NCBI RefSeq assembly: GCF_903970965.1
Contig: NZ_CAJCKW010000007.1
Location: 62,001 to 126,000, forward strand
Source of the DNA: Aureimonas sp. ME7
Lineage (GTDB): Bacteria; Pseudomonadota; Alphaproteobacteria; Rhizobiales; Rhizobiaceae
Length of the DNA stretch: 64,000 bases
Direction: 5' to 3'
The notes beneath the pieces are model-generated. The model searched no databases. It saw only the letters and a program-made list of their open reading frames with translations, and was not told where the DNA came from. How positions within the stretch are numbered: position 1 is the first letter of the stretch; each line of letters starts with the position of its first letter. Below are positions 24,299 through 43,543 of this stretch, piece by piece. Both the position numbers and the translations under genes were made by a program.

Positions 24299-24333
24299 CC
24301 CCGGCGGAGCTTTTCTCTCCGGCTCCGTCGGGG
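24299..24333. other. Stem-loop between adaptor and RND pump genes
   Basis: CCCCGGCGGAGC (24299-24310) pairs with GCTCCGTCGGGG (24322-24333), twelve pairs including one G-U, around an 11-base pyrimidine-rich loop. No T-run follows the stem. It may tune the adaptor-to-pump ratio by partial termination or mRNA protection. Confidence 0.5.
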
Positions 24334-24374
24334 TCGATGCCCCCTCCCATTTTTCGTCCGAAAGACCCCTCCCC

Positions 24375-27300
24375 GTGAACATCTCCCGGTTCTTCATCGA
24401 CCGCCCGGTCTTTGCGGGCGTCCTGTCCGTCATGATCTTTCTGGGCGGCCTTCTTTCGATCTTCGCCCTGCCGATCTCCGAATATCCCGAGGTCGTGCCC
24501 CCGTCCGTCGTGGTGCGCGCGACCTATCCCGGCGCCAACCCCGCGGTCATCGCCGAAACGGTGGCGACGCCGCTCGAAGAATCCGTCAACGGCGTCGAGG
24601 GCATGCTCTACATGAGCTCCCAGGCGACCACAGACGGCGTGATGCAACTCACCGTCACCTTTCGCATCGGCACCGACCCGGATCAGGCGCAGCAGCTCGT
24701 CCAGAACCGTGTGGCACAAGCCGAGCCGCGCCTACCCGAGGAAGTGCGCCGCCTCGGCGTGTCGGTGGTCAAATCCTCGCCCGACCTCATGCTGGTGGTC
24801 CACCTCACCTCGCCGAACGGGCGCTACGACCTCACCTATCTCAGAAACTACGCGCTTCTCAATGTGCGCGATCGCCTCGCGCGCATCGACGGCATGGGCC
24901 AGGTCCAGCTTTTCGGCTCGGGCGACTATTCCATGCGCATCTGGCTCGACCCCGAGAAGACCGCGGCCCGTGGCCTGTCGGCGAACGACGTCGTTTCCGC
25001 CGTCCGCGAGCAGAACGTCCAGGCCGCCGCCGGCGTCATCGGCGCCTCGCCGAGCGTGGCCGGCGTCGAATTCCAGCTGTCCGTCAACGCGCAAGGCCGC
25101 CTCAAGGACGCGGACGAGTTCGCCGACATTATCGTGCGCACCGACGCGCAAACCGGCGCCATCACGCGCATCCGCGACATCGGCCGCGTCGAACTCGGCG
25201 CGTCCGAATACGCCCTGCGCTCGCTCCTTTCCAACGAGCCCGCCGTCGCGATCCCCGTGTTCCAGGCGCCCGGCTCCAACGCCATCGCGATCGCCGACGA
25301 GGTGCGTAGCGTCATGGCCGAGATCAAGGAGACCATGCCCGAGGGCGTGGACTACGAGATCGTCTACGACACGACGCAGTTCGTGCGCGCCTCGATCGAG
25401 GCGGTGATCGACACGCTTCTCGAAGCCGTCGTCCTCGTCGTGCTGGTCGTGGTCGTCTTCCTTCAGACCTGGCGCGCCTCGATCATCCCGCTGCTGGCGG
25501 TGCCCGTGTCGATCGTCGGCACCTTCGCGGTGATGCATTTCCTCGGCTTCTCGATCAACGCCCTGTCCTTGTTCGGCCTGGTGCTGGCGATCGGCATCGT
25601 CGTGGACGACGCGATCGTCGTCGTCGAGAACGTCGAGCGCAACATCGAGAACGGCCTGAACCCCCGCGAGGCGACCTATCAGGCAATGCGCGAGGTGTCG
25701 GGTCCGATCGTCGCGATCGCGCTGGTGCTCGTCGCCGTGTTCGTGCCGCTCGCCTTCATCTCGGGGCTGACCGGCCAGTTCTACCGGCAGTTCGCGCTGA
25801 CGCTCGCGATCTCCACCGTGATCTCGGCCTTCAACTCGCTGACGCTTTCCCCCGCCTTGGCCGCCCTCCTCCTGCGCGGCCACGACGCGCCCAAGGACCG
25901 GCTGACGCGCATTCTCGACGGTTCGCTCGGCTGGTTCTTCCGAGGCTTCAACCGCTTCTTCGGCGCCTCGTCGCGCCGCTACGGCAACGGGCTCGGGCGT
26001 ATCGTCACCCGCAAGGGGATGATGCTGGGGCTTTACGTCGTCCTCGTCGCGCTCACCGCCGTTCTGTTTCAAAAGGTGCCCGGCGGCTTCGTGCCGGCGC
26101 AGGACAAGCAGTATCTCGTCGGCTTCGCGCAGTTGCCCGACGGCGCCTCGCTCGACCGGACGGACGCGGTGGCGCGCCGCATGGGCGAGATCGCGCTCAA
26201 AGTGCCGGGCGTCGAATCGACGATCGCCTTCCCGGGCCTATCGATCAACGGCTTCACCAATTCCTCCAACGCCGCCGTGGTGTTCCTGACGCTCGCACCC
26301 TTCGAGGAGCGGGAAACGCCGGAGCTGTCGGCCGGCGCCATCGCCCAGAAGCTGAACGGCGAGTTCGCCGGCATCCAGGAGGCCTTCACCGCGATCTTCC
26401 CGCCCCCGCCCGTGCAGGGCTTAGGCACGATCGGCGGCTTCAAGCTGCAGATCGAGGATCGCGCAGGGCAAGGCTACCAGGCGCTCGACGACGTGGTGCA
26501 GGGCTTCCTGGCGAAAGCCTATCAGGCGCCCGAGCTCACCGGCATGTTCACCGGCTACGGCATCGACGTGCCCCAGCTCTTTGCCGACGTCGACCGCGCC
26601 CGTGCCCGCCAGCTCGGCGTCTCCGTCACGGAGATCTTCAACACGCTGCAGATCTATCTCGGCTCGCTCTACGTCAACGACTTCAACCAGTTCGGCCGCA
26701 CCTATTCGGTGCGCGTCCAGGCCGACGCGCCCTACCGCGCTCGGGCCGAAGACATCGGCAACCTCAAGGTGCGCTCGAACTCGGGCGAGATGATCCCGCT
26801 ATCGGTTCTGATGAAGGTCGACACGGTCGCCGGCCCCGAGCGGGCGCTGCGCTACAACGGGTTCCTCGCCGCCGACGTCAACGGCAACGCGGCGCCGGGC
26901 TTCTCGTCCGGCCAGGCTCGGGCCGCGGTCGAGCGCATCGCGGCGGAAACCCTGCCGCCCGGCTTCAGCTTCGAATGGACCGAGCTCACCTATCAGGAGA
27001 TCATCGCCGGCAATTCGGGCGTCGTGATCTTCCCGCTCGCGATCCTTCTCGTGTTTCTGGTGCTGGCCGCCCAGTACGAGAGTCTCACCCTGCCGATCTC
27101 GATCCTCCTGATCGTGCCGGCCGGCCTGTTCTCGGCGCTGTTTGGGATTTGGGCAACGGGGGGAGACAACAACATCTTCACCCAGATCGGCCTGATCGTG
27201 CTCGTCGGCCTGTCGGCCAAGAACGCCATCCTCATCGTCGAGTTCGCGCGCGAACTGGAAGCGGAAGGGCGATCGGCGCGCGAAGCGGCGATCGAGGCGG

Positions 27301-27554
27301 CGCGCCTGCGCCTCCGGCCTATCCTGATGACCTCGCTCGCCTTCGTCATGGGCGTCCTGCCGCTCGTGCTCTCGACCGGGGCGGGTGCGGAGATGCGCTC
27401 GGCCATGGGCATTGCGGTGTTTTCCGGGATGATCGGCGTCACCCTCCTCGGCCTGTTCCTGACGCCGCTGTTCTACGTTCTCGTGCGGGCGCTCGCGCCC
27501 GCTCGGGCGCCGGTCCAGGCTTCGATGGAGGCGACGCCCGCGCACGGTGCCTGA
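24375..27554 (+). CDS. RND multidrug efflux transporter, inner-membrane pump (AcrB/MexF/BepE-like)
   Basis: 1059 residues, the normal HAE-1 length. It starts NISRFFIDRPVFAGVLSVMI from a GTG. The TM4 proton-relay pair is in LAIGIVVDDAIVVVENVERN (Asp-Asp, near residue 412), and the TM10 Lys is in GLSAKNAILIVEFA. Both large porter loops are full length, and TM9-12 follow the second loop (VIFPLAILLVFLVLAAQYES). It takes up drugs or toxic metabolites from the periplasm and outer leaflet. It should be derepressed when a ligand binds the upstream TetR. Confidence 0.95.
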   Translation: MNISRFFIDRPVFAGVLSVMIFLGGLLSIFALPISEYPEVVPPSVVVRATYPGANPAVIAETVATPLEESVNGVEGMLYMSSQATTDGVMQLTVTFRIGTDPDQAQQLVQNRVAQAEPRLPEEVRRLGVSVVKSSPDLMLVVHLTSPNGRYDLTYLRNYALLNVRDRLARIDGMGQVQLFGSGDYSMRIWLDPEKTAARGLSANDVVSAVREQNVQAAAGVIGASPSVAGVEFQLSVNAQGRLKDADEFADIIVRTDAQTGAITRIRDIGRVELGASEYALRSLLSNEPAVAIPVFQAPGSNAIAIADEVRSVMAEIKETMPEGVDYEIVYDTTQFVRASIEAVIDTLLEAVVLVVLVVVVFLQTWRASIIPLLAVPVSIVGTFAVMHFLGFSINALSLFGLVLAIGIVVDDAIVVVENVERNIENGLNPREATYQAMREVSGPIVAIALVLVAVFVPLAFISGLTGQFYRQFALTLAISTVISAFNSLTLSPALAALLLRGHDAPKDRLTRILDGSLGWFFRGFNRFFGASSRRYGNGLGRIVTRKGMMLGLYVVLVALTAVLFQKVPGGFVPAQDKQYLVGFAQLPDGASLDRTDAVARRMGEIALKVPGVESTIAFPGLSINGFTNSSNAAVVFLTLAPFEERETPELSAGAIAQKLNGEFAGIQEAFTAIFPPPPVQGLGTIGGFKLQIEDRAGQGYQALDDVVQGFLAKAYQAPELTGMFTGYGIDVPQLFADVDRARARQLGVSVTEIFNTLQIYLGSLYVNDFNQFGRTYSVRVQADAPYRARAEDIGNLKVRSNSGEMIPLSVLMKVDTVAGPERALRYNGFLAADVNGNAAPGFSSGQARAAVERIAAETLPPGFSFEWTELTYQEIIAGNSGVVIFPLAILLVFLVLAAQYESLTLPISILLIVPAGLFSALFGIWATGGDNNIFTQIGLIVLVGLSAKNAILIVEFARELEAEGRSAREAAIEAARLRLRPILMTSLAFVMGVLPLVLSTGAGAEMRSAMGIAVFSGMIGVTLLGLFLTPLFYVLVRALAPARAPVQASMEATPAHGA

Positions 27555-29495: not shown

Positions 29496-29993
29496 ATGCA
29501 ACCCTCCCGATCTCTTCACGACCCCGACGCGCCCGATGGATTGATGGTGTTCGACGGCGTGTGCAACTTCTGCTCGGGGCAGGTGCAGCTTCTTCTGAAG
29601 ATCGACCGGGCGGGCGCGCTGCGCTTCACCGCGATCCAGTCGCCCTACGGGCGCCATCTGGCGGCGCGCCACGGGCTCGATCCGGACGACCCGACCACCT
29701 TCATGTTCTTCGATCGCGGACGGCCCTTGCAGGAAAGCGACGCGGTGCTGGCGCTGTACGATCGGCTGCCCGCCCCGTGGCGGTGGCTGCGGCTCGCGCG
29801 GATCGTGCCGCGCCCGCTTCGCGACGCGGCCTACCGGCTTCTGGCTCGCAACCGCTACCGCCTGCTCGGGCGCCGCGACACCTGCATGGTACCCTCGCTA
29901 GCCGAGCGCGCCCGGTTCGTCGATGCCGTGCCAGACAGCCTTCAGGGAACGCTCGCCGGCGCCTCGGCTCCGAGCTCGAACCGTCCGTCGTAG
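29496..29993 (+). CDS. DCC-family thiol-disulfide oxidoreductase-like protein (DUF393)
   Basis: 165 residues. The family hallmark VFDGVCNFCSGQVQLLLK gives the name (Asp, Cys, Cys) and has a thioredoxin-like CxxC. RRDTCMVPSLAERARF is the conserved C-terminal Cys region. The ATG at 29496 gives a short N-terminus before DGLMVFDG. Family members are predicted redox proteins of unknown substrate. It converges on the DUF4166 gene and overlaps it by 52 bases. Confidence 0.88.
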   Translation: MQPSRSLHDPDAPDGLMVFDGVCNFCSGQVQLLLKIDRAGALRFTAIQSPYGRHLAARHGLDPDDPTTFMFFDRGRPLQESDAVLALYDRLPAPWRWLRLARIVPRPLRDAAYRLLARNRYRLLGRRDTCMVPSLAERARFVDAVPDSLQGTLAGASAPSSNRPS

Positions 29994-30586
29994 CGGAACA
30001 GCTCGCCAAACAGCGGATGGCGGAGATGCATCGCCATCTCGAAGCGGTCAGGCCCCTCGCAGGGCCCTTCCACCACCTCGGCGCGGCCGAGGAGGAGGCC
30101 GGCGGGAATGGGCCAGTCGCGGCCGAACAGGCGCCAGACATAGCCCGCGCCGCGAAACACCAGCGCCCCGTTCTCGACGCTCACCCTCATGCGCATGCCG
30201 ATCCCCAAGCGCACGAACTCGATCACCTCGCCGGACCCTGAGCGCACCATGAACGAGCGGAAGTGGAAGGGCGCACGACCGGGAAAGTGGAACACCCGGT
30301 CCCAATGGATGCGCGGGCCACGCACGCGGTAGTGCACCTCGATCGGCACGTCCCTGCCCTGATAGGGCACCAGCGCGCCGGCGATGCGTGCGAAGGGCAG
30401 GATCAAGGTGGCAAGGGCGCTGTGCCGGACCTCGCCCATCCGGCCGCGAACGGTGATGGCGTCGTCCGTGTCCGGCCGCAGGAAGTAGTGCCGACGCACG
30501 GCGCTCCCCAGCCGCGCCCACGCCTCCTCGCCGACGACCTCGCGAAACACCGGCTTGGGGCTTGGGGACGGGGGAAGAGCGTTCAT
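29942..30586 (-). CDS. DUF4166 domain protein
   Basis: 214 residues. The DUF4166 pattern is visible: LGSAVRRHYFLRPDTDDAI, VRGRMGEVRHS, VHYRVRGPRIHWDRVFHFPG, FRGAGYVWRLFGRDWPIP and MHLRHPLFGELFRYDGRFEL. In other bacteria this domain occurs alone or after saccharopine-dehydrogenase-like domains, with no known biochemical role. An AGGAAAGG Shine-Dalgarno precedes the ATG. Its last 52 bases overlap the DCC gene on the other strand, which could cause antisense interference. Confidence 0.85.
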   Translation of the reverse strand: MNALPPSPSPKPVFREVVGEEAWARLGSAVRRHYFLRPDTDDAITVRGRMGEVRHSALATLILPFARIAGALVPYQGRDVPIEVHYRVRGPRIHWDRVFHFPGRAPFHFRSFMVRSGSGEVIEFVRLGIGMRMRVSVENGALVFRGAGYVWRLFGRDWPIPAGLLLGRAEVVEGPCEGPDRFEMAMHLRHPLFGELFRYDGRFELGAEAPASVP

Positions 30587-30785
30587 GACGGGCCTTTCCT
30601 AAGGGTCTGGCGAAACCGGGCCGAGGGAACGGGCAGCGGTTCGCGCGTTTCAAAAGCTCGTCTTTCCGGTGGGCTCGTCAACCGGCGGGCTGCGACATAC
30701 TGGATTCTCCGCCCCGCCGCCGTTGCCCCGGGTCCGGCCGCTCCGTTAAGGGAAACCGCCCGCATTCCGGCGCGAAGGACGAATC

Positions 30786-31952
30786 ATGGCACTCCCGACG
30801 ACGCCGGCGAGACCACCCGCGATCGTGGTGATCGGCGATCTCGTGGAAGGCTGGCCGCCGCACGACATGGAGCCGGAGGCGATCGAACGGCAGGCCGCCG
30901 GCTGGCCGGATCGCCTTGCCGCCGAGCCGTTCGGGCCGGGCGCCGGCGCCGGGAGCGCCCCGCCGGCCGTCCACGGCGGCTATCTCGAACGCCTGCCGCT
31001 CGCCTGCGTGCATGCCGGGCTCGCCGACCATGCCGAGATCTGGCACTTCGCCCGCTCGGCCGACGTTCCGCCCCTGCGGCGCGACAGCCCGCATCTCGCC
31101 CGCCGCGTGTTCCGGCTGGACGGGGAGGGCGCGCCCTTCCGCTCCACCGACATGCTGCGCTTCATCGAGACCGTCGGCGCACCGGAGATTCTCGTCGTCC
31201 TGGGGCTGGGCGTCGAGGAGCGCATCCTCGAGGCCTGCCGGGCGAGCCTCAAGGTCTACAACTCGATCGACGCGCCCGCGCTTCGCGTGCCCCCCGAGAT
31301 CGGCCGTCACTTCGACCTCGTCCTGACCGGCGCCGATTGGCAGTCGCGCGAGGTGGAAGCGCGCCACCCTGGCATGACGACTGCCGTGATGCCGATCGGG
31401 CCGGAATTCGCCGATCCCGAGACCTTCCGTCCGCTCGGTGAGCCCAAGCCCTACGACGTCGTCTATGTCGCCGCTGCCCAACCCTACAAGCGGCACGACA
31501 TCCTGTTCGACGCGTTGGCGAGCGCCCCGCGACCTTTGCGGGCGCTCTGCGTCTTCGGATATGGCGAGATGGGGGGCGAGCTTCGCGAACAGGCGATGGC
31601 CCGTGGCCTTCAGGTCGATTTCGTCGGCCCGCCCGGCGTTCCCTTTGCCGAGGTCAACCGGCTGATGAACGCGGCCAGGATCGGCGTGGTGTGCGGGGTC
31701 GACGACGGCGCCCCGGCCATTCTCACCGAATACATGCTGGCGGGCCTGCCGGTTCTCGCCAACGAGCGCCTCGCCTGCGGGCTCCAGTTCATCACGCCGG
31801 AAACGGGACGCACCGCGCCGGCCGAGCATTTCGGCGCGGCGATGGTGGGGATGCTCGATAGCCTGGAACGCTTTCGCCCCCGCGAAATCGCTTGCGAGCG
31901 GTGGATCTGGCCCCATACGATCGAGCGCTTCCGGTCGCAGCTCACGAAATAG
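30786..31952 (+). CDS. Family 4-like glycosyltransferase
   Basis: 388 residues, GT-B fold. The C-terminal half has the donor-binding signature region: YDVVYVAAAQPYKRHDILFD, FVGPPGVPFAEVNRLM and DDGAPAILTEYMLAGLPVLA, where the Glu of the E-x7-E-like motif contacts the nucleotide sugar. The N-terminal half is divergent. AAGGAC lies upstream of the ATG. It is the first gene of the glycoconjugate locus and the only one here with a free-standing glycosyltransferase domain. Donor and acceptor unknown. Confidence 0.85.
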   Translation: MALPTTPARPPAIVVIGDLVEGWPPHDMEPEAIERQAAGWPDRLAAEPFGPGAGAGSAPPAVHGGYLERLPLACVHAGLADHAEIWHFARSADVPPLRRDSPHLARRVFRLDGEGAPFRSTDMLRFIETVGAPEILVVLGLGVEERILEACRASLKVYNSIDAPALRVPPEIGRHFDLVLTGADWQSREVEARHPGMTTAVMPIGPEFADPETFRPLGEPKPYDVVYVAAAQPYKRHDILFDALASAPRPLRALCVFGYGEMGGELREQAMARGLQVDFVGPPGVPFAEVNRLMNAARIGVVCGVDDGAPAILTEYMLAGLPVLANERLACGLQFITPETGRTAPAEHFGAAMVGMLDSLERFRPREIACERWIWPHTIERFRSQLTK

Positions 31953-32027
31953 GCGTGCCGCGATTGGTCGCATGGCGGAATGCGTCCGGGATCGGCTAGG
32001 TCCGGGCCCACCATGTGAGGGGTTGTG

Positions 32028-34430
32028 ATGACGCCAGAGTTTGCGACCGCTTCCGGGCCATCGGGAGCCAGATTCGGCGACGGCGTCAAACCACAATCCG
32101 ACCACCCCCCGATCATCTGCTTCTCGCATCTGCGCTGGGACTTCGTCACCCAGCGCCCGCAACACCTGATGCGCCGCTTCGCCGGGGACCGAAAGGTCTT
32201 CTTCTTCGAGGAGCACATCCCCTGCGACCACCCGCTGCCCTATCTCGAATTCCACCCCTTCCCCGCTGACGGCGTCATCGCGCTCCGCCCGCGCCTGCCG
32301 CACTGGTGGAGCCTGGAGGAGCGCGAGGCGGGGCTGGCACAGCTTCTCGCCATGCTGGTCGACACGGCGATGGCGGCGCCGCCGGTTCTCTGGTTCTACA
32401 CGCCGATGATGTTCGCCTTCGCTGGAGGCGTGCCGGCGGCGGCCGTGGTCTACGACTGCATGGACGAGCTCAGCGCCTTCCGCTTCGCCGATCCGCGCCT
32501 CGTCGCGCTGGAAGGGGAACTCCTCGCGCGCGCCGACGCCGTGTTCACCGGCGGCTGGAGCCTTTTCGAGGCCAAGCGCCACCGGCACGCCAACATCCAC
32601 CCCTTCCCCTCCTCGGTGGACGTCGCCCATTTCGGCCGAGCGCGCGCCGGCACGTTGCCTCCGCCCACCGATCAGGCAGCCCTTCCCGGCCCCGTTCTCG
32701 GCTTCTACGGGGTGATCGACGAGCGGTTGGATCTCAAGCTGATCGCCGCTGTCGCGAGCGCCCGGCCCGACTGGACGCTTGCGATGCTCGGCCCCGTCGC
32801 CAAGATCGATCCGGCCGACCTGCCCCGCGCCGCGAACCTCCATTGGCTGGGCGGGAAAGGCTACGACGAGCTGCCGGCCTATCTCGCCCGCTGGGACGTG
32901 GCGCTGATGCCCTTCGCCATCAACGAGGCGACGCGCTTCATCAGCCCGACCAAGACGCCGGAATATCTCGCCGGCGGTTGCCCGGTGGTGTCGACGCCGG
33001 TCGCCGACGTCGTGCGCCACTACGGCGCGCTGGAAGGCGTCGGGATCGCGGGCGAGGCGCCCGCCTTCGTCGCGGCCTGCGAGCGCGCGCTCGCCCTCGG
33101 GGCCACGGGCCGCTGGCGCGACGAGGCCGACGCGCTCCTGGCCGACATGTCCTGGGACCGGACGCAAGGGGCGATGGCGGCCATTCTCGACGAGGCGATC
33201 CTCGCCGCCCGGCGCGCGGGCGCCCATCCCGCCAACGACGAGCCGTCCCTGCCCGCCATTCATGCCAAGCCGCGCCGCGAGCGCTTCGACGCGCTGGTGG
33301 TGGGAGCGGGCTTTGCCGGCGCGGTTCTGGCCGAGCGGCTGGCGGAAGGCTCCGGCCGACGCGTCCTCGTCGTGGACCGGCGCGACCATATCGCCGGCAA
33401 CGCCTACGACCACCTGGATGAGGCCGGCGTCCTCGTTCATCGCTACGGGCCGCACATCTTCCACACCAACAGCCCGAAGGTGGTGGACTATCTCTCGCGC
33501 TTCACGGGCTGGCGCCCCTACGAGCACCGCGTCCTGGCGCGGGTCGGCGACAAGCTCCTGCCGATCCCGATCAACCGCACCACCCTGAACGCGCTCTTCG
33601 GCTGCGACCTCCGATCGGACGCGGACGCCGCCGCCTTCCTGAAGGCGCGCGCCGAGCCGGTCGCCGTTCCGCTGACGGCGGAGGACGAGGTGGTCGGCGC
33701 CGTCGGGCGCGAACTCTACGAAACCTTCTTCCGGGGCTACACGCGCAAGCAATGGGGTCTCGACCCTTCGGCGCTCGACCGCTCCGTCACCGCCCGCGTG
33801 CCGGCGCGCACGGACACGGACGACCGTTACTTCACCGACCGCTTCCAGGCGATGCCGGAGGGTGGCTACACCGCGATGTTCGAGCGCATGCTCGATCACC
33901 CCAACATCACGGTGCGCCTTTCCACCGACCACCGCGACATCCGCGAAACGGTCGAGGTCGGCCATACCGTCTTCACCGGGCCGGTGGACGAGTTCTTCGA
34001 CCACCGCTTCGGGCGCCTGCCCTATCGCTGCCTCGCCTTCCGGCACGAAACGCACGATAGGCCCGAGTTCCAGCCGGTCGGCGTCGTGAACTATCCCGGC
34101 GAGGACGTCGCCTTCACGCGCATCACCGAATACAAGCACCTGACCGGCCAGCGCCACGACAAGACCAGCCTGTCCTACGAGTTCCCCTCCGACGAGGGCG
34201 ATCCGTACTACCCGGTGCCGCGCGAGGAGAACCAGGCGCTCTACCGGCGCTACGAGGCGCTGGCCAACGCCACGCCGGATGTCAGCTTCGTCGGGCGCCT
34301 CGCGACCTATCGCTACTACAACATGGATCAGGTCGTGGCGCAGGCGCTCGCCACCTATGCGCGGATGACGGGCAAGCCGGCGGGCGCCGGCGCGGCGGCG
34401 GCGAGCGTCACGGCGGGGCCCTCCGTTTGA
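32028..34430 (+). CDS. Glycosyltransferase (TuaH-like) fused to UDP-galactopyranose mutase
   Basis: 800 residues in one frame. Residues about 25-400 are a GT-B glycosyltransferase of the TuaH type (FSHLRWDFVTQRPQHLMRRF and LMPFAINEATRFISPTKTPE). Residues about 418-790 are a complete UDP-galactopyranose mutase: FAD-binding DALVVGAGFAGAVLAERLA, RYGPHIFHTNSPKVVDYLSR, YTRKQWGLDPSALDRSV and the C-terminal YRYYNMDQVVAQAL. The mutase makes UDP-galactofuranose, so the fused transferase may use that donor directly. Start is ATG 32028 with AGGGG upstream. Glf is normally a separate protein of about 370-390 residues. Confidence 0.9.
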   Translation: MTPEFATASGPSGARFGDGVKPQSDHPPIICFSHLRWDFVTQRPQHLMRRFAGDRKVFFFEEHIPCDHPLPYLEFHPFPADGVIALRPRLPHWWSLEEREAGLAQLLAMLVDTAMAAPPVLWFYTPMMFAFAGGVPAAAVVYDCMDELSAFRFADPRLVALEGELLARADAVFTGGWSLFEAKRHRHANIHPFPSSVDVAHFGRARAGTLPPPTDQAALPGPVLGFYGVIDERLDLKLIAAVASARPDWTLAMLGPVAKIDPADLPRAANLHWLGGKGYDELPAYLARWDVALMPFAINEATRFISPTKTPEYLAGGCPVVSTPVADVVRHYGALEGVGIAGEAPAFVAACERALALGATGRWRDEADALLADMSWDRTQGAMAAILDEAILAARRAGAHPANDEPSLPAIHAKPRRERFDALVVGAGFAGAVLAERLAEGSGRRVLVVDRRDHIAGNAYDHLDEAGVLVHRYGPHIFHTNSPKVVDYLSRFTGWRPYEHRVLARVGDKLLPIPINRTTLNALFGCDLRSDADAAAFLKARAEPVAVPLTAEDEVVGAVGRELYETFFRGYTRKQWGLDPSALDRSVTARVPARTDTDDRYFTDRFQAMPEGGYTAMFERMLDHPNITVRLSTDHRDIRETVEVGHTVFTGPVDEFFDHRFGRLPYRCLAFRHETHDRPEFQPVGVVNYPGEDVAFTRITEYKHLTGQRHDKTSLSYEFPSDEGDPYYPVPREENQALYRRYEALANATPDVSFVGRLATYRYYNMDQVVAQALATYARMTGKPAGAGAAAASVTAGPSV

Positions 34431-37400
34431 GCCGAGCCCCTTCGGCGGGCCGCCGCCTTCGCGTCCTTGTCGCCACCGACAGCCTCCTGCCGTCCGGCGT
34501 CGGCGAGCACATGCTGACGCTGGCCGGCGAACTCGGCGACTTCGACGTCGCGGTCGCCGCCGATCCGCGCTCCGGTCTCGGGCCCCGCGCAGTGGGGCTC
34601 GACATCGCCGGCCTTCCCTTCGACGCGGGCGATCCTGCCTCCTTCGCCGGGGCGCTCGCCCGCTTCCGCCCCGATATCCTCCACCTCCATGCCGGGATCG
34701 GCTGGGAGGGACATGCCCTGGCACGGACGGCGCGCGAGGCCGGCGTCGCCACGATCCTGCGCACCGAGCACCTGCCCTTCGTCCTCACCGACCCGGCGCA
34801 GCGGGCGGAATACCTGGAAGGCGTCGCGACGCTGGACGGGGTGATCTGCGTCTCGCAGAGCGCCGCCGACAGCTTCATGGCGGCCGGCATCGATCCCGCC
34901 CGCACCCACGTGATCCGCAACGGCATCCGCCCGCCCGTCGCCCGGCGCACCCGCGAGGTCATGCGCCGCGAGCTGGCGATCGCGCAAGACGCGCCCGTCC
35001 TCCTCGCGGTCGCCCGACTGACGGAACAGAAGGGCCATGCCACGCTTCTCGGCGCCCTCCCCGCCGTGATCCGTCGTCATCCCGGCCTCCGTTGCCTCGT
35101 AGCCGGCGACGGCCCGCTTCGAGCCGCGCTGGAGACGCAGGCGAGCGCCCTTGGGTTCGGAGACGCCGTCCGCTTCCTTGGGGAGCGGGGTGACGTTGCC
35201 GACCTTCTTCTCGCCGCCGATCTCCTTGTCCTCCCGTCGCTCTTCGAGGGCCTGCCGCTCGCCGTCCTGGAAGCCATGGCGGCCGGGCGGCCCGTGGTGG
35301 GAACGCGCATCGGGGGAACCGCGGAAGCGGTGGTGGATGGGATCACCGGCTGGCTCGCCGAGCCGGGCGACGCAGCCTCCCTCGGCGAGACCCTGTTGCA
35401 AGCGCTCGCCGACCCCACAGCTATGGCCCACGCGGGCCGCGCCGGGCACGAGCGCTTCACGGCCCGCTTTCGCGCCCAGACCATGGGCGCGGCGACCGCC
35501 GCGCTCTACCGTCGCCTTTCTCCCTCATCGTCGAACACAGCCAAGGATCGCCCCATGACGCCCACGCGCATCGGTTTCATCGGGGCCGGCGGCATCGCCC
35601 ACCGGCATCTCGGCATCCTGGAAGGATTCGAGGACGTCGTGATCGTCGGCTTCGCCGACACCGACCTGCCTCGCGCTAAAAGTGCCGCCGACCGCTTCGG
35701 CGCGCGCGCCTTCACCGACGCCGCCGCCATGATGGACGCGGTGGCACCCGACGCCGTCTACATCTGCATCCCGCCCTTCGCCCATGGGGGCCCCGAGCGC
35801 GCCGCGATCGAACGCGGCCTGCCCTTCTTCGTGGAAAAGCCGGTGGCGCTCGACATCGAGACCGCAGAGGCGATCGCGGCCGAGGTGGAAGCCAAGGGTC
35901 TCGTCACCGGCGTCGGCTACCATTGGCGCTATCTCGACACGGTGGACGAAGCGCGCCGGCTTCTGGCCGATAATCCCGCCCAGCTCCTGTCCGGCTACTG
36001 GCTGGATTCGACGCCGCCGCCGGAGTGGTGGTGGAAGCAGGCGGGCTCGGGCGGGCAGATGGTGGAGCAGGCGACGCACCTTCTCGACCTCGCGCGGTTC
36101 CTGGTCGGCGAGGTGACGGAAGTCTACGGGCGCGCCAGCCACAAGGAGCGCGGCGAGTTTCCCGGGCTCGACGTGCCGACCACCTCCACGGCGACGCTCA
36201 CCTTCGAGAACGGCACGGTCGCCAACGTCGCCTCCACCTGCCTTCTCGGCTGGAACCACCGCGTCGGCCTCCACATCTTCGCCGACAAGCTGGCGATCGA
36301 GCTGACCGACCACGACATCATGGTCGATGTCGGTCGCGGACGCCCGGTGCGCGGGGCGGACGGCGACCCCGTCTGGCGGGAGGACCGCGACTTCATCGAC
36401 GCCGTGGCGGGCCGCGAAAACCACATCCGCTGCACCTATGCCGACGCCCTGGCGACGCACCGTCTGGCGCTGGCGGTCTCGCAGTCCGCGCGCAGCGGTG
36501 ACGTGATTCCCGTGAAACATCCGGCCTTGAGCCGTGCGCCTCTTCAGCCCCTTCGCCCCCAGCCCCGGCACGAGCCCCCGGCGGGGCTGCCGCCCGGCCA
36601 CCGCCACATCCGATCGCTCGGCGTCGAGCGGCCGGGCGAGGCCTATTTCCTCCAATACGAGGAGGGACCGCCGGACGAGGGCCAGGTGCGGCTCGACACG
36701 CTCTACACCGGCTTTTCCGCCGGTACGGAGCTGACCTTCTACAAGAACACCAACCCCTATCTCCATTCGCGCTGGGACGGCGGGCGGGGCGTCTTCGTGC
36801 CCGGCGAGGCGGGGCAGCACTTCCCCGTGCCCTTCCTCGGCTACATGGAGGTGGGGCGCGTCTCCGAATCGCGCGCCGGCGGCTTCCGGCCCGGCGAGGT
36901 CGTCGCCTCGACCTATGCCCACAAGAGCGGCCACACGGCCGATCCGTTCCACGACCTCCTCGTCAAGCTGCCAACCGGGATCGACCCGATGCTCGGCATC
37001 TATGTCGCGCAGATGGGGCCGATCGCGGCCAACGGCATCCTCCATGCCGACGCCGAACTCGCCGGCGCCCATGTCGAGCGCCTGGGGCAGGGTGTTGCCG
37101 GCCGTCCGGTTCTCGTCATCGGCGGGGGCGTCGTCGGTCTCCTGACGGCGCTGTTCGCGGCGCGCGCCGGTGCGGCCGAGGTGGTCGTCGCCGACCCCTC
37201 GCCCTTCCGCCGCGCCCGGATCGAGGCGCTCGGCTTCACCGCCATGGAGGAGGAGGAAGCCTGGGCCTACGCCAAGGCAAACTGGCACCACGGCGGCGGA
37301 GACCGAGGCGCCGACTTCGTCTTCCAGACGCGCGCCGACGACCGGAGCCTCCACGCCGCGTTCCGTGCTCTCCGGCCTCAGGGCACGGTGATCGACCTCG

Positions 37401-37690
37401 CCTTCTACCAGGGCGGAGCGGGCGCGGTGCGGCTTGGCGAGGAGTTTCACCACAACGGGCTGAACCTTCGCTGCGCGCAGATCAACCGCGTGCCGCGCGG
37501 CCTCGGCTTCGAATGGAACCGGCGTCGTCTGGCGCAGGAAACGATCGGGCTCCTCGAGACACGCGGCGACGACATCCGCTCGCAGCTGATCACCCATGTC
37601 GTGCCCTTCGACGACGGGCCGGCCTTTCTCGCCCATCTCGTCACCGAGCGGCCGGACTTCCTCCAGGTCGTCTTCCAGGTCGCTGAATAA
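34427..37690 (+). CDS. Tri-domain protein: GT4 glycosyltransferase - Gfo/Idh/MocA oxidoreductase - MDR dehydrogenase
   Basis: One open frame of 1087 codons. Residues 1-370 are a GT4 glycosyltransferase (LLAVARLTEQKGHATLLGAL and PSLFEGLPLAVLEAMAAGRP). Residues 377-700 are a Gfo/Idh/MocA oxidoreductase (IGFIGAGGIAHRHLGILEGF and the FFVEKPVALD motif with its catalytic Lys). Residues about 701-1087 are a zinc-independent MDR dehydrogenase (YTGFSAGTEL where zinc enzymes have Cys, and VLVIGGGVVGLLTALFAARA). The TTG start overlaps the previous stop as TTGA. A Shine-Dalgarno AAGGA (35543-35547) and ATG (35555) sit exactly at the second domain, so separate translation or a recently lost stop codon is possible. 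Confidence 0.82.
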   Translation: MSRAPSAGRRLRVLVATDSLLPSGVGEHMLTLAGELGDFDVAVAADPRSGLGPRAVGLDIAGLPFDAGDPASFAGALARFRPDILHLHAGIGWEGHALARTAREAGVATILRTEHLPFVLTDPAQRAEYLEGVATLDGVICVSQSAADSFMAAGIDPARTHVIRNGIRPPVARRTREVMRRELAIAQDAPVLLAVARLTEQKGHATLLGALPAVIRRHPGLRCLVAGDGPLRAALETQASALGFGDAVRFLGERGDVADLLLAADLLVLPSLFEGLPLAVLEAMAAGRPVVGTRIGGTAEAVVDGITGWLAEPGDAASLGETLLQALADPTAMAHAGRAGHERFTARFRAQTMGAATAALYRRLSPSSSNTAKDRPMTPTRIGFIGAGGIAHRHLGILEGFEDVVIVGFADTDLPRAKSAADRFGARAFTDAAAMMDAVAPDAVYICIPPFAHGGPERAAIERGLPFFVEKPVALDIETAEAIAAEVEAKGLVTGVGYHWRYLDTVDEARRLLADNPAQLLSGYWLDSTPPPEWWWKQAGSGGQMVEQATHLLDLARFLVGEVTEVYGRASHKERGEFPGLDVPTTSTATLTFENGTVANVASTCLLGWNHRVGLHIFADKLAIELTDHDIMVDVGRGRPVRGADGDPVWREDRDFIDAVAGRENHIRCTYADALATHRLALAVSQSARSGDVIPVKHPALSRAPLQPLRPQPRHEPPAGLPPGHRHIRSLGVERPGEAYFLQYEEGPPDEGQVRLDTLYTGFSAGTELTFYKNTNPYLHSRWDGGRGVFVPGEAGQHFPVPFLGYMEVGRVSESRAGGFRPGEVVASTYAHKSGHTADPFHDLLVKLPTGIDPMLGIYVAQMGPIAANGILHADAELAGAHVERLGQGVAGRPVLVIGGGVVGLLTALFAARAGAAEVVVADPSPFRRARIEALGFTAMEEEEAWAYAKANWHHGGGDRGADFVFQTRADDRSLHAAFRALRPQGTVIDLAFYQGGAGAVRLGEEFHHNGLNLRCAQINRVPRGLGFEWNRRRLAQETIGLLETRGDDIRSQLITHVVPFDDGPAFLAHLVTERPDFLQVVFQVAE
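35543..35557 (+). promoter_or_regulatory. Internal ribosome binding site at the Gfo/Idh domain boundary
   Basis: AAGGATCGCCCCATG: a good Shine-Dalgarno with 7-base spacing to an in-frame ATG coding for residue 377 of the long frame, exactly where the Rossmann fold of the oxidoreductase begins (MTPTRIGFIGAGG). It would allow the oxidoreductase part to be made without the glycosyltransferase. Confidence 0.55.
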
Positions 37691-39960
37691 TGGAGGCAAG
37701 GGGCGAGCCGGTCCGCATCCTCTTCGTCTTCGCCTGGCTGGTGGTGGGCGGCGAGGAAACCGAGGTTCGGCTGTTGGCCGAGCATCTCGACCCCAGGCGC
37801 TACAAAATCGACGTCGTCGCCTGCTTTCGCAAGGACGGCATGCCGGAGCAGACGCACCGGCAGCTCGAAGCGCTGGGCGTCTCGGTCGACCGGACGCCCT
37901 ACACGCTCTCCTTCGAGGACACGGTCTCCTATCTCGCCGGCAAGGTGCCGGGATACGATCTCGTCGTGTCCTGCCAGAACGTCGCCGACATCTACCCGGC
38001 GCTGGAGCGGCTCCGTCTGCGCCCGCCCCTGATCGAGCACGGCGGCCTCGTCGCGGAGGCGCTCGGCGGGCCGAAGCATTTCACCCACCGCTATGTCGGC
38101 GTCTGCCGCACCATCCGCGATGCCGCCGCCTCGCGCATGGCCGGCCGCGAGCATCATGCGCTGGAAATCCCGTCCGCCGTCGATCTCGGCGTCTTCGACC
38201 TCGCTCACCGCGATCGCATGCGGCAGACTCTCGGTTTCGCGCCCGGAACCCCGGTGATCGGCTGGGTCGGGCGGCTCGATCCGAAGAAGCGGGTGGAGGA
38301 CTTTCTGGACGCCGCCGCGCTCGTCCTGAAGGCGCGCCCCGACGCGCGCTTTCTGGTGATCGGCGGGCCGGACGCGTTCCTACCCGAATACGCCGACGCC
38401 TTGAAACTCCAGGCCGCGCGGCTGGGTCTCGGCAGCGCCCTGCGCTTCCTCGGCGACCGGGCGGACGTACCCGAACTCCTGTCCGCGCTCGACGTCTTCG
38501 TCTGGCTGTCGCGCGGCGAGGGTATGCCGCATGTGGTGGCGGAAGCGGGCGCCGCCGCCCTGCCCGTGGTCGCCACCGCCGACAACGGGACGCTGGAGCA
38601 GATCGAGGAGGGGTTAAGCGGTCTCTTCGTGCCGCACGAAAGTCCGGAGGCCGTGGCGCAGGCCGTGCTCGGGCTTCTCGCCGACCCCGCGCGCGCCGGG
38701 CGACTCGGTGCCGCGCTGCGCGAGACGGTCGAGCGGACCTACGCCATCCCCGTCGTGATCCGCCAATGGGAAGCGCTGTTCGAGGAGGTGCTGGCGGAAG
38801 CCCGCTCGGCTCCCCCGGTGCCCACTCTCTTCCGCTCCTTCTTCCAGGGCGGGTTCGAATCCTCCACCCATCGCCGCGCCCACGACCGGCGTCGCATCGA
38901 CATGATCGCGGCGAGCTACCACGACCGCTTCGCCGGCGCCGACTACCGCGCGCTCCAGGGCCACGGCATCCGCACGGTGCGCGACGGGTTGCGCTGGCAC
39001 CTGATCGAGCCGGAACCCGGCCGTACCGACTGGACGAGCCTTGAGGCGCAGCTCGCGGCGGCCGAGACCACGGGAACGCAGGTCGTCTGGGACATCCTCC
39101 ACTACGGCTGGCCGGACGATCTCGACATCTGGCGGCCCGAATTCGTCACGCGCTTCACGCGCTTCGCCGCCGAGGCCGCGCGGCGGATCGGGGCGCGCAC
39201 GGATGGCGTTCCGTTCTACGCCCCGGTGAACGAGATTTCCTTCTTCGCCTGGGGTGGGGGCGACGCCGGCTATCTCAACCCGTTCTTCCACGGCCGGGCA
39301 CACGAATTGAAGGTGCAGCTGTCGCGCGCCGCGATCTCGGCCATGGAAGCGATCTTGGCGGTCGATCCCAGCGCCCGCTTCGTCCATGCCGACCCCGTCA
39401 TCAACGTCGCGACCGATCCCGGCCGCCCGCACGAGGCGGCGCATGCCGAAGGTCACCGGCAGGCCCAGTTCCAGGCCTGGGACATGATCGCCGGGCGCGC
39501 CTGGCCGCAGATCGGCGGGCGCGAGGCGCTGCTCGATATCGTGGGCGTCAACTACTACTACAACAACCAGTGGATCCACGGTGGCCCGCCGATCGACTGG
39601 GGCCATCCGCTCTACAAGCCGCTGCGCGCGATCCTCGCCGAAACCTATGCCCGCTACGGCCGCCCGATCTTCATCGCCGAAACGGGCACGGAGGGCGAGC
39701 GTCGCGCGGAATGGCTGCGTTATGTCGCGCAGGAGACGCGCGCCGCCATGCGCCTCGGCGTGCCGGTGGAGGGCATCTGCCTCTACCCCGTCCTCGACCA
39801 TCCCGGCTGGGACGACGAGCGCTACTGCCCGAACGGCCTCCTGCGCTTCTCGGCCGAGGAAGCGCGGCGCACGGCCGATCCGGCGCTCGCCGCCGAGTTG
39901 GCCCGCCAACGGACCTTGACAGCGCCCTATCTCGTCGCGGCTCGCCTCGGCGCGACGTGA
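37690..39960 (+). CDS. GT4 glycosyltransferase fused to a clan GH-A glycoside hydrolase (GH1-like)
   Basis: 756 residues. Residues 1-375 are a GT4 glycosyltransferase (VIGWVGRLDPKKRVEDFLDA and LSRGEGMPHVVAEAGAAALP). From about residue 380 a glycosidase-like TIM barrel begins with LFRSFFQGGFESSTHRRAHD. Its acid/base Glu is in PVNEISFFAWG and its nucleophile Glu in FIAETGTEGERR, the N-E and E pair of clan GH-A. The ATG overlaps the preceding stop by one base (TAATG). Close relatives of the barrel are, from memory, separate proteins starting MFRSFF; here a Leu codon replaces that Met, consistent with a stop-loss fusion. Hydrolase or transglycosylase activity is unproven. Confidence 0.85.
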   Translation: MEARGEPVRILFVFAWLVVGGEETEVRLLAEHLDPRRYKIDVVACFRKDGMPEQTHRQLEALGVSVDRTPYTLSFEDTVSYLAGKVPGYDLVVSCQNVADIYPALERLRLRPPLIEHGGLVAEALGGPKHFTHRYVGVCRTIRDAAASRMAGREHHALEIPSAVDLGVFDLAHRDRMRQTLGFAPGTPVIGWVGRLDPKKRVEDFLDAAALVLKARPDARFLVIGGPDAFLPEYADALKLQAARLGLGSALRFLGDRADVPELLSALDVFVWLSRGEGMPHVVAEAGAAALPVVATADNGTLEQIEEGLSGLFVPHESPEAVAQAVLGLLADPARAGRLGAALRETVERTYAIPVVIRQWEALFEEVLAEARSAPPVPTLFRSFFQGGFESSTHRRAHDRRRIDMIAASYHDRFAGADYRALQGHGIRTVRDGLRWHLIEPEPGRTDWTSLEAQLAAAETTGTQVVWDILHYGWPDDLDIWRPEFVTRFTRFAAEAARRIGARTDGVPFYAPVNEISFFAWGGGDAGYLNPFFHGRAHELKVQLSRAAISAMEAILAVDPSARFVHADPVINVATDPGRPHEAAHAEGHRQAQFQAWDMIAGRAWPQIGGREALLDIVGVNYYYNNQWIHGGPPIDWGHPLYKPLRAILAETYARYGRPIFIAETGTEGERRAEWLRYVAQETRAAMRLGVPVEGICLYPVLDHPGWDDERYCPNGLLRFSAEEARRTADPALAAELARQRTLTAPYLVAARLGAT

Positions 39961-40129: not shown

Positions 40130-41752
40130 TTGTCGTCTTCGCTGACCCAGCCCTTTCGCAGTCGGGATTTTCGCTTTCTCTGGTCGGCGGTTCTGGTGTC
40201 CAATCTCGGCGGCCTCGTGCAGGGGGTCGGCGCCGGCTGGATGATGGCGACGATCGGCGCCTCGGACGAGATGGTCGCGCTGGTGCAGGCCGCGACCACC
40301 TTGCCGATCATGATCTTCTCGCTGGCGGCCGGCGCGCTCGCCGACAGTTTCGATCGGCGCCGCATCCTCATCGCCGCGCAGGGGCTGATGATGGGAACCT
40401 CCATCGTTCTTGCCTGGCTGGCCTTCAGCGGGCAGCTCGGACCTTACACGCTTCTCGGCCTCACCTTCCTGATCGGCTGCGGCACGGCGCTCCACAATCC
40501 GTCCTGGCAGGCCTCGATCGGCGATCTCGTGCCGCGCGGCGACATTCCCTCCGCCGTCACGCTGAACTCGATGGCCTTCAACCTGATGCGCTCGGTGGGA
40601 CCCGCGATCGGCGGCTTCCTCGTCACCCTGACCGGGGCCGCAGGCGCCTTCGCCTTCAACGCCGTCAGCTACCTGCCCATCATCCTGACGCTTCTGGCCT
40701 GGAAGCGCCCGCGCGCGCCCATCGGCCTGCCGCGCGAAAGCTTCGGGCAGGCGATGGGGGCGGGCCTGTCCTTCGTCGCCATGTCGCCCAACCTCCTCAC
40801 GGCGATCGGGCGCGCCTTCCTGTTCGGCCTCGGCGCGGTGGCGATGCTGGCGCTCCTGCCGCTGGTGGCGCGCGACCTCGTGTCCGGCACGGCGACGACC
40901 TACGGCATCCTCCTCGGCTCCTTCGGCATCGGCGCGATCGGCGGCGCCTTCCTCAACACGCGCCTTCGCGAGGCCTTCGCCAGCGAGACGATCGTGCGCG
41001 GCGCGTTCCTCGGCTTCGGGGCGAGCGCGCTCATCGTCGCCAACAGTTCGAGCACATGGATCAGCTGTCTCGGACTGCTGCCGGCCGGCGCCTCGTGGGT
41101 GCTCGCCCTGTCGCTCTTCAACGTCACGGTGCAGCTGTCGGCCCCGCGCTGGGTGGTCGGCCGCGCCCTGTCGATCTACCAGACCGCGACCTTCGGCGGC
41201 ATGGCGCTCGGCAGCTGGCTCTGGGGCGTGGCGGCCCATGCCTACGGGCCGGCGATGGCGCTGAGCCTTGCCGCCGCAGCGCTCGCCTTCGGGGCGGTGG
41301 TGGGCCTGCGCTTTCCCGTGCCGGCCCTCGTGTCGCTCGACCTCGACCCGCTCGGCCAGTTCCAGGAACCCTCGGTCCGGCTCGACCTTCGCTCGCGCTC
41401 CGGTCCGATCATGGTGATGGTGGACTACGAGATCGCGCAAGGGGACGTGCAGCCCTTCCTGCGTGCCATGGCCGAGCGGCGGCGCATCCGCATCCGCGAC
41501 GGGGCACGACAATGGTCGCTCCTGCGCGACCTCGAGCATCCCGAGATCTGGACCGAAACCTATCATGTGCCGACCTGGGTCGAGTATGTCCGGCACAACA
41601 TGCGCCGCACCAAGGCCGATGCCGTGATCTACGAGCGGCTCCTGGCGCTGCACCGGGGCACCGAGCGCCCCCGCGTCCACCGGATGATCGAGCGCCAGAC
41701 CGTTCCGATCCTCGACGACATGCCGATCAAGGAAAATCCCGACGTGCCGTGA
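40130..41752 (+). CDS. MFS transporter of the EntS/MFS_3 type with C-terminal soluble domain
   Basis: 540 residues starting at TTG (MSSSLTQPFRSRDFRFLWSA). Twelve helices span about residues 15-400 with an SFDRRRIL loop between helices 2 and 3. Residues about 420-510 form an extra soluble domain (PIMVMVDYEIAQGDVQPFLR) that looks like an antibiotic-biosynthesis-monooxygenase-type ferredoxin-like fold, known in the MFS_3 family (PF05977). The position just after the glycoconjugate locus suggests a role in exporting its product, but the 170-base gap leaves this open. Confidence 0.88.
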   Translation: MSSSLTQPFRSRDFRFLWSAVLVSNLGGLVQGVGAGWMMATIGASDEMVALVQAATTLPIMIFSLAAGALADSFDRRRILIAAQGLMMGTSIVLAWLAFSGQLGPYTLLGLTFLIGCGTALHNPSWQASIGDLVPRGDIPSAVTLNSMAFNLMRSVGPAIGGFLVTLTGAAGAFAFNAVSYLPIILTLLAWKRPRAPIGLPRESFGQAMGAGLSFVAMSPNLLTAIGRAFLFGLGAVAMLALLPLVARDLVSGTATTYGILLGSFGIGAIGGAFLNTRLREAFASETIVRGAFLGFGASALIVANSSSTWISCLGLLPAGASWVLALSLFNVTVQLSAPRWVVGRALSIYQTATFGGMALGSWLWGVAAHAYGPAMALSLAAAALAFGAVVGLRFPVPALVSLDLDPLGQFQEPSVRLDLRSRSGPIMVMVDYEIAQGDVQPFLRAMAERRRIRIRDGARQWSLLRDLEHPEIWTETYHVPTWVEYVRHNMRRTKADAVIYERLLALHRGTERPRVHRMIERQTVPILDDMPIKENPDVP

Positions 41753-41828
41753 CGTCCGGCTGACCCGAAGCGGAGCCGGATCGCGCTTTCGCGCGTTGGA
41801 AGGACATCCGAGACACGGGAGACCCGAA

Positions 41829-42266
41829 ATGGGCGAGATGACGCTGAAAGACCTGTCGGACGCGATGGGCGACATCGACTTCTGCATGCTGTCCACGCGC
41901 ACGCAAGGCGGCGAGATCGCGGCCCGGCCGATGAGCAACAACGGCGACGTCGCCTACGAGGGCGATTCGTATTTCTTCACCTATGAAGCGGCGCGCACCG
42001 TGTCCGACATCGAGCGCGACCCCAAGGTCGGTCTCGGCTTCCAGGGCAAAAAGGGGCTTTTGGGCAAGCCGCCGCTCTTCATCTCCGTGGAGGGCCATGC
42101 CGAGCTGATCCGCGACAAGGGCGCTTTCGAAGCCCATTGGACGAAGGATCTCGACTACTGGTTCAAGGATGGGATCGACACGCCGGGCATCGTCCTCATC
42201 AAGGTCCATGCCACCCGCATCCATTTCTGGAACGGCGAGGACGAGGGCGAAGTCCCGCTGCGCTGA
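41829..42266 (+). CDS. Pyridoxamine 5'-phosphate oxidase-fold protein (general stress protein 26-like)
   Basis: 145 residues. The split-barrel flavin-binding fold is indicated by DIDFCMLSTRTQGGEIAARP and YFFTYEAARTVSDIERDPKV, then KPPLFISVEGHAELIRDKGA. Family members bind FMN or F420 and are often stress-induced; the substrate is unknown. The start ATG 41829 gives MGEMTLKDLSDAMG; an in-frame ATG at 41838 is possible. Confidence 0.88.
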   Translation: MGEMTLKDLSDAMGDIDFCMLSTRTQGGEIAARPMSNNGDVAYEGDSYFFTYEAARTVSDIERDPKVGLGFQGKKGLLGKPPLFISVEGHAELIRDKGAFEAHWTKDLDYWFKDGIDTPGIVLIKVHATRIHFWNGEDEGEVPLR

Positions 42267-42412: not shown

Positions 42413-43543
42413 ATGGGCGAGGATTTCGCCTGGACGATCCCGCTGATCCATGGCGCGTTCGGCTTCCTGTTCCTTTGCGCGCGCCGGGCCGGCGCACCGG
42501 TGGAGGCAAGGTTCTGGGGCCTCGGCTTCATCCTGAGCGGGGCGGCCTTCGCGGTGCCCGCGCTTCTGCCCGTTCTGCCCGTTCCCCTTGTGGCGTTCGC
42601 CGCCGACACGCTGTTTGCCACCGCCTTCTTCTGCTTCGGCGAAGCGCTCGTCGCGCGCTACGGGGTCAGGCAATTTGCAAGGGCGCGGCTGGCCTTCCTT
42701 TTCGCGGTGATCGCCGCGTCCGCGATCGCCGTTCTCTGGTTGGACAGCCTTCCCCTCGAGCTTCTGTTTTCCGACATCGGATGCGCCGGGCAAGTCGCGT
42801 TCGCGCTTCTCCTGGTTCGCGTCTGGCCGCCCACCCCGGCCGACCGTGCGGTGATCGCGGTATCCTGGCTGGTGGTGGTCGACAATCTCGTTCGCACCGC
42901 CATTGCGCCGCTCACCGCGCCGGGCGGCACCCTCGCCTCGTTCGCGGATACGGACTACGCCTACCTGATGCAGGCGAGCGCCTTTCTGACAGGACTCGCC
43001 TTCGCCATCGCCGCGCTCCTGGCGATCGCAACCGACATGCTCGCCGGCTACCGCCGCGACGCGGACGCGGACCCGCTCACCGGCCTTCTCAACCGGCGGG
43101 GCCTTCAAAGCGCCGTCGCCCGGATCGGCGGCGAGCCGGGAGACGGTCTGGTGTCCTGCGATCTCGATCACTTCAAGGCCGTCAACGACACGTTCGGACA
43201 CGATGCGGGCGACCGGGTGCTGATCGCCTTCGCCGACCTGATCCGGCAGGTCCTGCCGCCGGGCGCGCTCGCGGGGCGCCCAGGCGGCGAGGAATTCGTC
43301 CTCTACGTTCCCGGACGCCTGGGGCTGGGTGCCGAGCGGGTCGCGATCGACCTGCGCAACGCCATGGCCGCGCACGATTGGAGCCGCGAGGGTCTTTCGG
43401 CCAGCCAGACGGCCTCGTTCGGCGTCGCCGTGCGCCAGCTGGAGGATGCCGGGATCGCCGACCTCGCCCGGCGCGCGGACGCCTGCCTCTACGAGGCCAA
43501 GCGCTGCGGGCGCGACCAGATCCGGAGCGCGCTCGCCGCCTAG
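42413..43543 (+). CDS. Membrane-bound diguanylate cyclase (GGDEF domain)
   Basis: 376 residues. Six to seven hydrophobic helices (about residues 5-215) form an N-terminal membrane sensor. The C-terminal GGDEF domain has DPLTGLLNRRGL, VSCDLDHFKAVNDTFGHDAG and the active-site loop RPGGEEFVLY, so it should make cyclic di-GMP from two GTP. The inhibitory I-site RxxD is absent at its usual position (PPGALAG before the loop), which predicts no product inhibition. The 3' end runs directly into a short repeat. Confidence 0.92.
   Translation: MGEDFAWTIPLIHGAFGFLFLCARRAGAPVEARFWGLGFILSGAAFAVPALLPVLPVPLVAFAADTLFATAFFCFGEALVARYGVRQFARARLAFLFAVIAASAIAVLWLDSLPLELLFSDIGCAGQVAFALLLVRVWPPTPADRAVIAVSWLVVVDNLVRTAIAPLTAPGGTLASFADTDYAYLMQASAFLTGLAFAIAALLAIATDMLAGYRRDADADPLTGLLNRRGLQSAVARIGGEPGDGLVSCDLDHFKAVNDTFGHDAGDRVLIAFADLIRQVLPPGALAGRPGGEEFVLYVPGRLGLGAERVAIDLRNAMAAHDWSREGLSASQTASFGVAVRQLEDAGIADLARRADACLYEAKRCGRDQIRSALAA

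Follow-up and report, generated by a model that had tools for sequence, protein, structure and literature searches.

A cassette of fused glycosyltransferase genes in Aureimonas sp. ME7 with a likely link to galactofuranose

The DNA examined here, referred to as the window, is a stretch of 64,000 nucleotides from Aureimonas sp. ME7 (contig NZ_CAJCKW010000007.1, positions 62,001 to 126,000, forward strand), and includes a cassette of four co-directional open reading frames (ORFs), all on the forward strand and all encoding a glycosyltransferase (GT) domain. ORF1 (30786..31952, 388 amino acids) encodes a GT4-like glycosyltransferase, GTa (PF00534 40.7 bits, cut-off 26.4). ORF2 (32025..34430, 801 amino acids) encodes a TuaH-like GT, GTb (residues ~26-400), followed by a UDP-galactopyranose mutase, GLF (residues 421-778). 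ORF3 (34427..37690, 1087 amino acids, TTG start) joins GTc (~1-366) to a Gfo/Idh/MocA domain (377-700) and an MDR domain without the usual zinc ligands (716-1087), and ORF4 (37690..39960, 756 amino acids) joins GTd (~1-370) to a triose-phosphate isomerase (TIM) barrel resembling glycoside hydrolase (GH) family 1 (377-756). The arrangement GT; GT-GLF; GT-Gfo/Idh/MocA-MDR; GT-glycosidase given in an initial annotation is therefore borne out by the ORFs, the Pfam and NCBIfam domains and a model of the barrel. The overlaps that were said to join the frames are present in the sequence as TTGA (34427-34430, ORF2/ORF3) and TAATG (37688-37692, ORF3/ORF4), but ORF1 and ORF2 do not overlap and are separated by a 72-base gap.

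A Pfam domain of the GT1/GT4 group scored above its curated cut-off in each of ORF1-ORF4. The motif of GT4-type glycosyltransferases is EX7E; as read off the translations, GTc and GTd have EX7E, GTa has DX7E, and GTb has the second glutamate only. By hydropathy analysis, ORFs 1, 2 and 4 lack membrane segments, and the single stretch in ORF3 (2.15) lies inside the MDR Rossmann fold. No priming transferase, flippase/exporter or polymerase was found by Pfam among the four ORFs, the remainder of the window and of the genome not being scanned for them.

The GLF domain of ORF2 scored 372 bits against TIGR00031 (cut-off 303.75), placing it among the UDP-galactopyranose mutases. Its closest relative of known structure is 3hdq, presumably from Deinococcus radiodurans, at 532 bits versus 303 for the next, and the eight active-site positions checked, which are those that we take to matter, are identical in the two.

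Members of the Gfo/Idh/MocA family carry an EKP lysine and a catalytic His. In ORF3, this domain was recognised by PF01408 (83.2 bits, above cut-off), and both EKP and His176 were invariant in 25 sequences, consistent with membership of the family. The following domain scored 38 bits against PF00107, above the curated cut-off. Zinc-dependent MDR dehydrogenases have Cys and His-Glu zinc ligands, and in the 25 sequences Ser replaces Cys (SAGTE) and GYME replaces GHE. As judged by these residues, the domain, although assigned to the MDR family by PF00107, is not a typical zinc enzyme. A structure model of the Gfo-MDR part (mean predicted local distance difference test (pLDDT) 74.8, predicted template modelling score 0.58) was too weak for use and was set aside.

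The predicted structure of the ORF4 barrel, built on 41 sequences, is a TIM barrel with a mean pLDDT of 91. Among the 50 matches listed, the nearest folds were GH1 beta-glucosidases, with template modelling scores of 0.69-0.77 over the query and 14-19% identity. The barrel could not be placed in GH1 itself, as no GH family was found in Pfam at E 0.001 and the sole NCBIfam match, to GH35, reached 20.9 bits against a cut-off of 500. Enzymes of clan GH-A have a TIM barrel with an acid/base Glu preceded by Asn and, close to strand 7, a nucleophile Glu. Putative counterparts are Glu 515 in an NE motif (39232..39234, forward strand) and Glu 664 in an ETG motif (39679..39681, forward strand), both invariant in sets of 14 and 41 sequences; their respective roles as acid/base and nucleophile are assumed by analogy with the clan. 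The modelled fold and both glutamates would place the barrel in clan GH-A, in agreement with the glycosidase assigned to it initially, with an activity that is predicted only. The trimming role assigned along with it is one possibility; such a barrel could equally transfer a sugar.

A search of domain architectures across genomes, proposed in the initial annotation, was made domain by domain over 101 loci. The named set was capped at the 80 top-ranking barrel matches and is biased towards close relatives. A tree was built from 68 rows holding GTc, Gfo, MDR, GTd and GH, from Rhizobiaceae, Aureimonas, sphingomonads, Devosia and others; it includes the window, for which the fusion states were assigned by hand from its ORFs. 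Duplicate or short loci (L037, L038, L039, L041, L043, L044 and L045) were omitted from the tree, the junction scan, the neighbour clustering and the flank counts. GTd and GH share one frame in 68/68 rows. GTc-Gfo-MDR is a single frame in 39/68; in 20 others GTc and Gfo are fused with MDR separate, in eight all three are separate, and in one Gfo and MDR are fused with GTc apart. GTb and GLF form a single frame in 50/68 rows, GLF lies apart in two, and 16 have none, including L088, which is cut by a contig end and was scored as GLF-less though part of GLF is present. A GTa homologue accompanies the other genes in 62/68 rows. The same partners thus recur as fusions in independent assemblies, and the four genes recur together as a conserved cassette, consistent with the single coherent unit proposed initially. 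In Rhizobium sp. CFBP 8762 (L039/L071), GTa shares the frame of GTb-GLF as well, which may represent an extra fusion.

That a frame or sequencing error has joined separate genes might be suspected, given that the window comes from a high-GC draft assembly of 60 contigs and that Gfo and MDR are separate in some relatives. However, the junctions are open in independent assemblies. Moreover, an in-frame start preceded by a Shine-Dalgarno (SD)-like motif is kept at just 3/39 fused Gfo-MDR junctions (ATG in none), as against ATG with SD in 22/28 of the separate Gfo and MDR genes used as a control. On the fusion states across the 68 tree rows, the error explanation was rejected and can practically be dismissed; the fusions of the three ORFs are real. 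Separate genes of a known pathway in relatives had been named in the initial annotation as an observation that would speak against it. Separate neighbouring Gfo and MDR genes do occur in Devosia and Sphingomonas, yet they belong to the same locus, and no described pathway was found. Parsimony on the tree gave three changes for Gfo-MDR and three for GTc-Gfo, counts that do not separate gain from loss; one long row (L127) is placed uncertainly. The Aureimonas clade of the window (support 100) is nested in a supported clade with sphingomonads, in which MDR is separate, and hence the Gfo-MDR fusion either arose apart from that of Rhizobium or was lost in between.

The GTc-Gfo junction of ORF3 contains an SD-like AAGGA (35543-35547) followed by an in-frame ATG (35555-35557), the element spanning 35543..35557 on the forward strand. 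In relatives, an in-frame start with an SD-like motif is found at 52/58 fused GTc-Gfo junctions (ATG in 43), and at other fused junctions it is rare (GTd-GH 1/68; GTb-GLF 5/52, ATG in four). SD-like motifs precede 116/1583 internal ATGs generally. The retention of start and motif at this junction suggests two products, and ORF3 likely yields both GT-Gfo-MDR and a shorter Gfo-MDR protein. Weighing against two starts, the same scan found ATG with SD in just 2/9 separate GTc and Gfo genes.

The cassette is rare, accessory and often plasmid-borne. At E 1e-20, the barrel was detected in 4/385 genomes of a class-wide sample, the window's included. The same gene set and order are found across many genera with varying fusion state, and the surroundings are unrelated between hosts; conserved neighbour clusters, sought with a GC3 filter on frames, were identified in part. 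A smaller set, consisting of GTb, GLF and a standalone barrel, was found in Azospirillum, Skermanella, Stutzerimonas, Deinococcus sp. QL22, Mesorhizobium and an acidobacterial metagenome-assembled genome. The minimal core, seen in Azospirillaceae and Stutzerimonas, comprises this trio and an ABC exporter that lies directly downstream in 15 loci of this type; the two exporters scanned are of MsbA/ChvA type, below equivalog cut-offs. The nearest in-frame start of the standalone barrels is 2-6 residues before the match in 17/22, which, if used, would be too close to allow a signal peptide. In Comamonas the barrel is fused to GTb. A 1242-amino-acid protein of Pantoea eucrina (L048, 11992-15720) combines the barrel, a TuaH-like GT and, in the place expected for GLF, a flavoenzyme; GLF as the third domain was rejected, as this part is amine-oxidase-like and no GLF domain was found in it. 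In D. radiodurans (L046, 11956-14295), the barrel is fused to an acyl-CoA dehydrogenase and adjoins a PIG-L deacetylase gene.

The distribution of GLF bears on the sugar used. All 14 genomes searched that have full cassettes without GLF carry one separate GLF, only 41-45% identical to the window's GLF, and both genomes with GLF-less core loci also have a separate GLF (match partial in one). Where the cassette includes GLF, all 23 genomes have the gene, a second copy is found in only two, and the window's genome has one. Hence, an extra GLF outside the cassette occurs in 14/14 GLF-less versus 2/24 GLF-bearing genomes including the window's (Fisher test 1.2e-8, kinship ignored). In total, GLF was present in the locus or elsewhere in 39/39 genomes searched for it via the loci; AU20 (L032) was excluded from the search for a separate GLF. 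In a family sample, the cassette was judged from the matches to be present in 8/121 genomes, each with one GLF, and GLF occurred in 20/113 others; the sole genome of the same genus in that sample has neither. The pairing of GLF-less cassettes with GLF elsewhere supports UDP-galactofuranose as substrate, and, together with the conserved active-site positions, strengthens the galactofuranose assignment of the initial annotation. As judged from gene content, galactofuranose is thus the likely sugar of the cassette product, and the exchange of GLF points to a donor sugar without knowledge of the product itself.

A link with the general stress response is suggested by upstream motifs. The Sphingomonas melonis EcfG motif is GGAAC-N17-20-GTT, and excerpts of the same paper (PMC6599016) list glycosyltransferase genes in the stress regulon and do not contain the word 'mutase'. 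That of Rhizobium etli is GGAAC-N16-CGTT, according to an excerpt of PMC3892343. GGAAC-N17-GTT, which is in agreement with these published motifs, was found within 300 bases upstream of 25/76 alphaproteobacterial loci (18/66 full cassettes and 7/10 others), compared with 1.4 on average and 5 at most in 300 draws of random places taken from the same loci. With any other spacer length between 12 and 22, the motif was present in 0 to 4 loci, N17-20 together was found in 29/76, and the exact R. etli form in only 4/76 (background 0.3). These counts omit L037-L039, L041, L043-L045, L040, L046-L048, L051, L052, L071 and L060 (short upstream sequence); L040 and L071, tested separately, are without the N17 motif, giving 25/78. 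Upstream of the window's cassette lies an EcfG-like GGAAC-N16-GTT (30626..30649, forward strand), in which the spacer is a single base shorter than at the N17 peak. Stress-type genes (DUF892, KatE-type catalase, WrbA-like, Mn-catalase and GSP26-like) occur in the flanks of 30/94 loci. DUF892 alone is near 21/94, against ~1% expected per 20-kb stretch (70 copies in 21 genomes).

Close to the cassette, the window encodes a pyridoxamine-oxidase-like protein (41796-42266, PF16242), presumably GSP26-like, with a relative near the cassette in L076 and L113. On a plasmid of Ewingella americana (L051, 11992-14330), the barrel gene seems split between frames, and Mn-catalase, DUF892 and ferritin-like genes adjoin it. 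The cassette itself is flanked by a DUF4166 gene (29942-30586) and an MFS transporter gene (40130-41752), and at E 1e-10 no relatives of either were found in the other 94 loci. Further features of the window are an RND efflux adaptor and permease pair (22926-27554; the adaptor MexE-like, the permease above its NCBIfam cut-off) and a GGDEF diguanylate cyclase domain (42413-43543).

On balance, these genes are probably an accessory cassette, spread by horizontal transfer, whose product is a small galactofuranose-containing glycoconjugate made in the cytoplasm, presumably as part of a stress response. GLF would convert UDP-galactopyranose to UDP-galactofuranose for use by the fused GTb, and GTa, GTc and GTd would attach further sugars. 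The Gfo-MDR pair may catalyse an oxidation and a reduction, perhaps an epimerisation, of one sugar or cyclitol, and the barrel on GTd, in which both presumed catalytic glutamates are conserved, may either trim the product as a hydrolase or modify it as a transglycosidase. Release or membrane flipping would require a separate transporter, in the minimal core probably the neighbouring MsbA/ChvA-like exporter. Given that none of the ORFs encodes an export function, a small or lipid-linked product is more likely than a polymer made from this locus alone; for the surface location implied initially, no exporter, polymerase or priming enzyme was found among the four ORFs. The repeated fusion of the same partners suggests enzymes that act on one another's products; it hints at the channelling put forward in the initial annotation, and nothing beyond it does so. 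A more specific version is doubtful, namely an assembly line induced by stress, with each glycosyltransferase fused to an enzyme that makes, transfers or modifies by redox the sugar it handles. GLF would supply GTb, Gfo-MDR would modify the GTc sugar, the barrel on GTd would be a cytoplasmic transglycosidase and not a hydrolase, the two starts of GTc-Gfo would give fused and free Gfo-MDR, and the product would be a galactofuranose protectant (a glycolipid or soluble oligosaccharide).

Several observations weigh against a small, stress-related galactofuranose product. When kinship is considered, the GLF exchange reduces to ~5 supported pairs, four versus none with one showing no difference (sign test p 0.125), and the flavoenzyme and acyl-CoA dehydrogenase fusions of Pantoea and D. 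radiodurans indicate that GLF is not the only partner of the barrel. The core exporter has no close homologue in nine full-cassette genomes, the window's included (best identity 45% in Lichenifustis, 36-42% in the other eight). Of the 14 sphingomonad loci and the four Aureimonas loci besides the window's, none has the N17 motif. The window's own copy, N16-GTT only, is off the peak and was not established as an EcfG promoter. Many stress-flanked loci are close kin, so that the excess of DUF892 and other stress genes is overstated, and DUF892 is absent from the genome of the window.

An ordinary surface polysaccharide or lipopolysaccharide (LPS) pathway, with priming, flipping and polymerising genes elsewhere in the genome, is a possible but clearly less likely account. 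GLF with several GTs is typical of such loci, and the galactofuranan locus pamABCDE of Kingella decorates LPS, according to an excerpt of PMC12269835. However, the surroundings of the cassette differ by host as described, and the four ORFs include no exporter, priming enzyme or polymerase; the exporter that belongs to the minimal core is instead MsbA/ChvA-like. Much less probable still is a catabolic or salvage locus, in which the barrel would cut galactofuranosides, GLF would run in reverse and Gfo-MDR would oxidise the sugar. This would suit a GH1-like barrel, the sugar ABC importers near some loci, and the solved Gfo/Idh relatives, which include inositol dehydrogenases and DgpA, which we take to be a glycoside oxidase. 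It is difficult to reconcile with the presence of four glycosyltransferase domains, the absence of an importer from the ORFs, the short stretch before most standalone barrels (too little for a signal peptide if the nearest start is used), and a GLF whose substrates are nucleotide sugars. A cytoplasmic galactofuranose glycoconjugate remains the preferred reading.

So far, galactofuranose has been described mainly in cell walls and in glycans of the cell surface. If true, its use in a stress-associated cassette that can move between leaf and soil bacteria would be new, and the fusions, repeated and in part independent, point out enzyme partners open to direct testing. No description of the cassette was recognised in open-licence PMC papers, mostly seen as listings, in accordance with the initial annotation, whose author knew of no described pathway with this enzyme set; the excerpts of a galactofuranose review (PMC7278926) and of PMC3861447 likewise contain nothing on the locus, and PMC8877191 gave no match.

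The individual parts resemble known systems to different extents. 3hdq, by a wide margin the nearest solved sequence to the ORF2 GLF and sharing the eight checked residues, is a chain of 397 residues without a GT fusion, unlike ORF2. The barrel of ORF4 has the fold and the NE and ETG glutamates in common with GH1 beta-glucosidases but differs in its low identity, its lack of a Pfam GH1 match and its fusion to a GT. A family of bi-domain MDR-Gfo/Idh oxidoreductases exists, and in G047 and G043 relatives of the two domains (28-34% identity) are direct neighbours; compared with these adjacent or bi-domain enzymes, the order in ORF3 is reversed, with Gfo before MDR, and a GT stands in front. As in the galactofuranose loci of Kingella (pamABCDE) and mycobacteria (GlfT2), as far as covered by the excerpt of PMC12269835, GLF lies beside GTs, but here it is fused to a GT that is TuaH-like and not a GT2 enzyme, the Gfo-MDR and GH1-like domains are additional, and no LPS or cell-wall context was seen.

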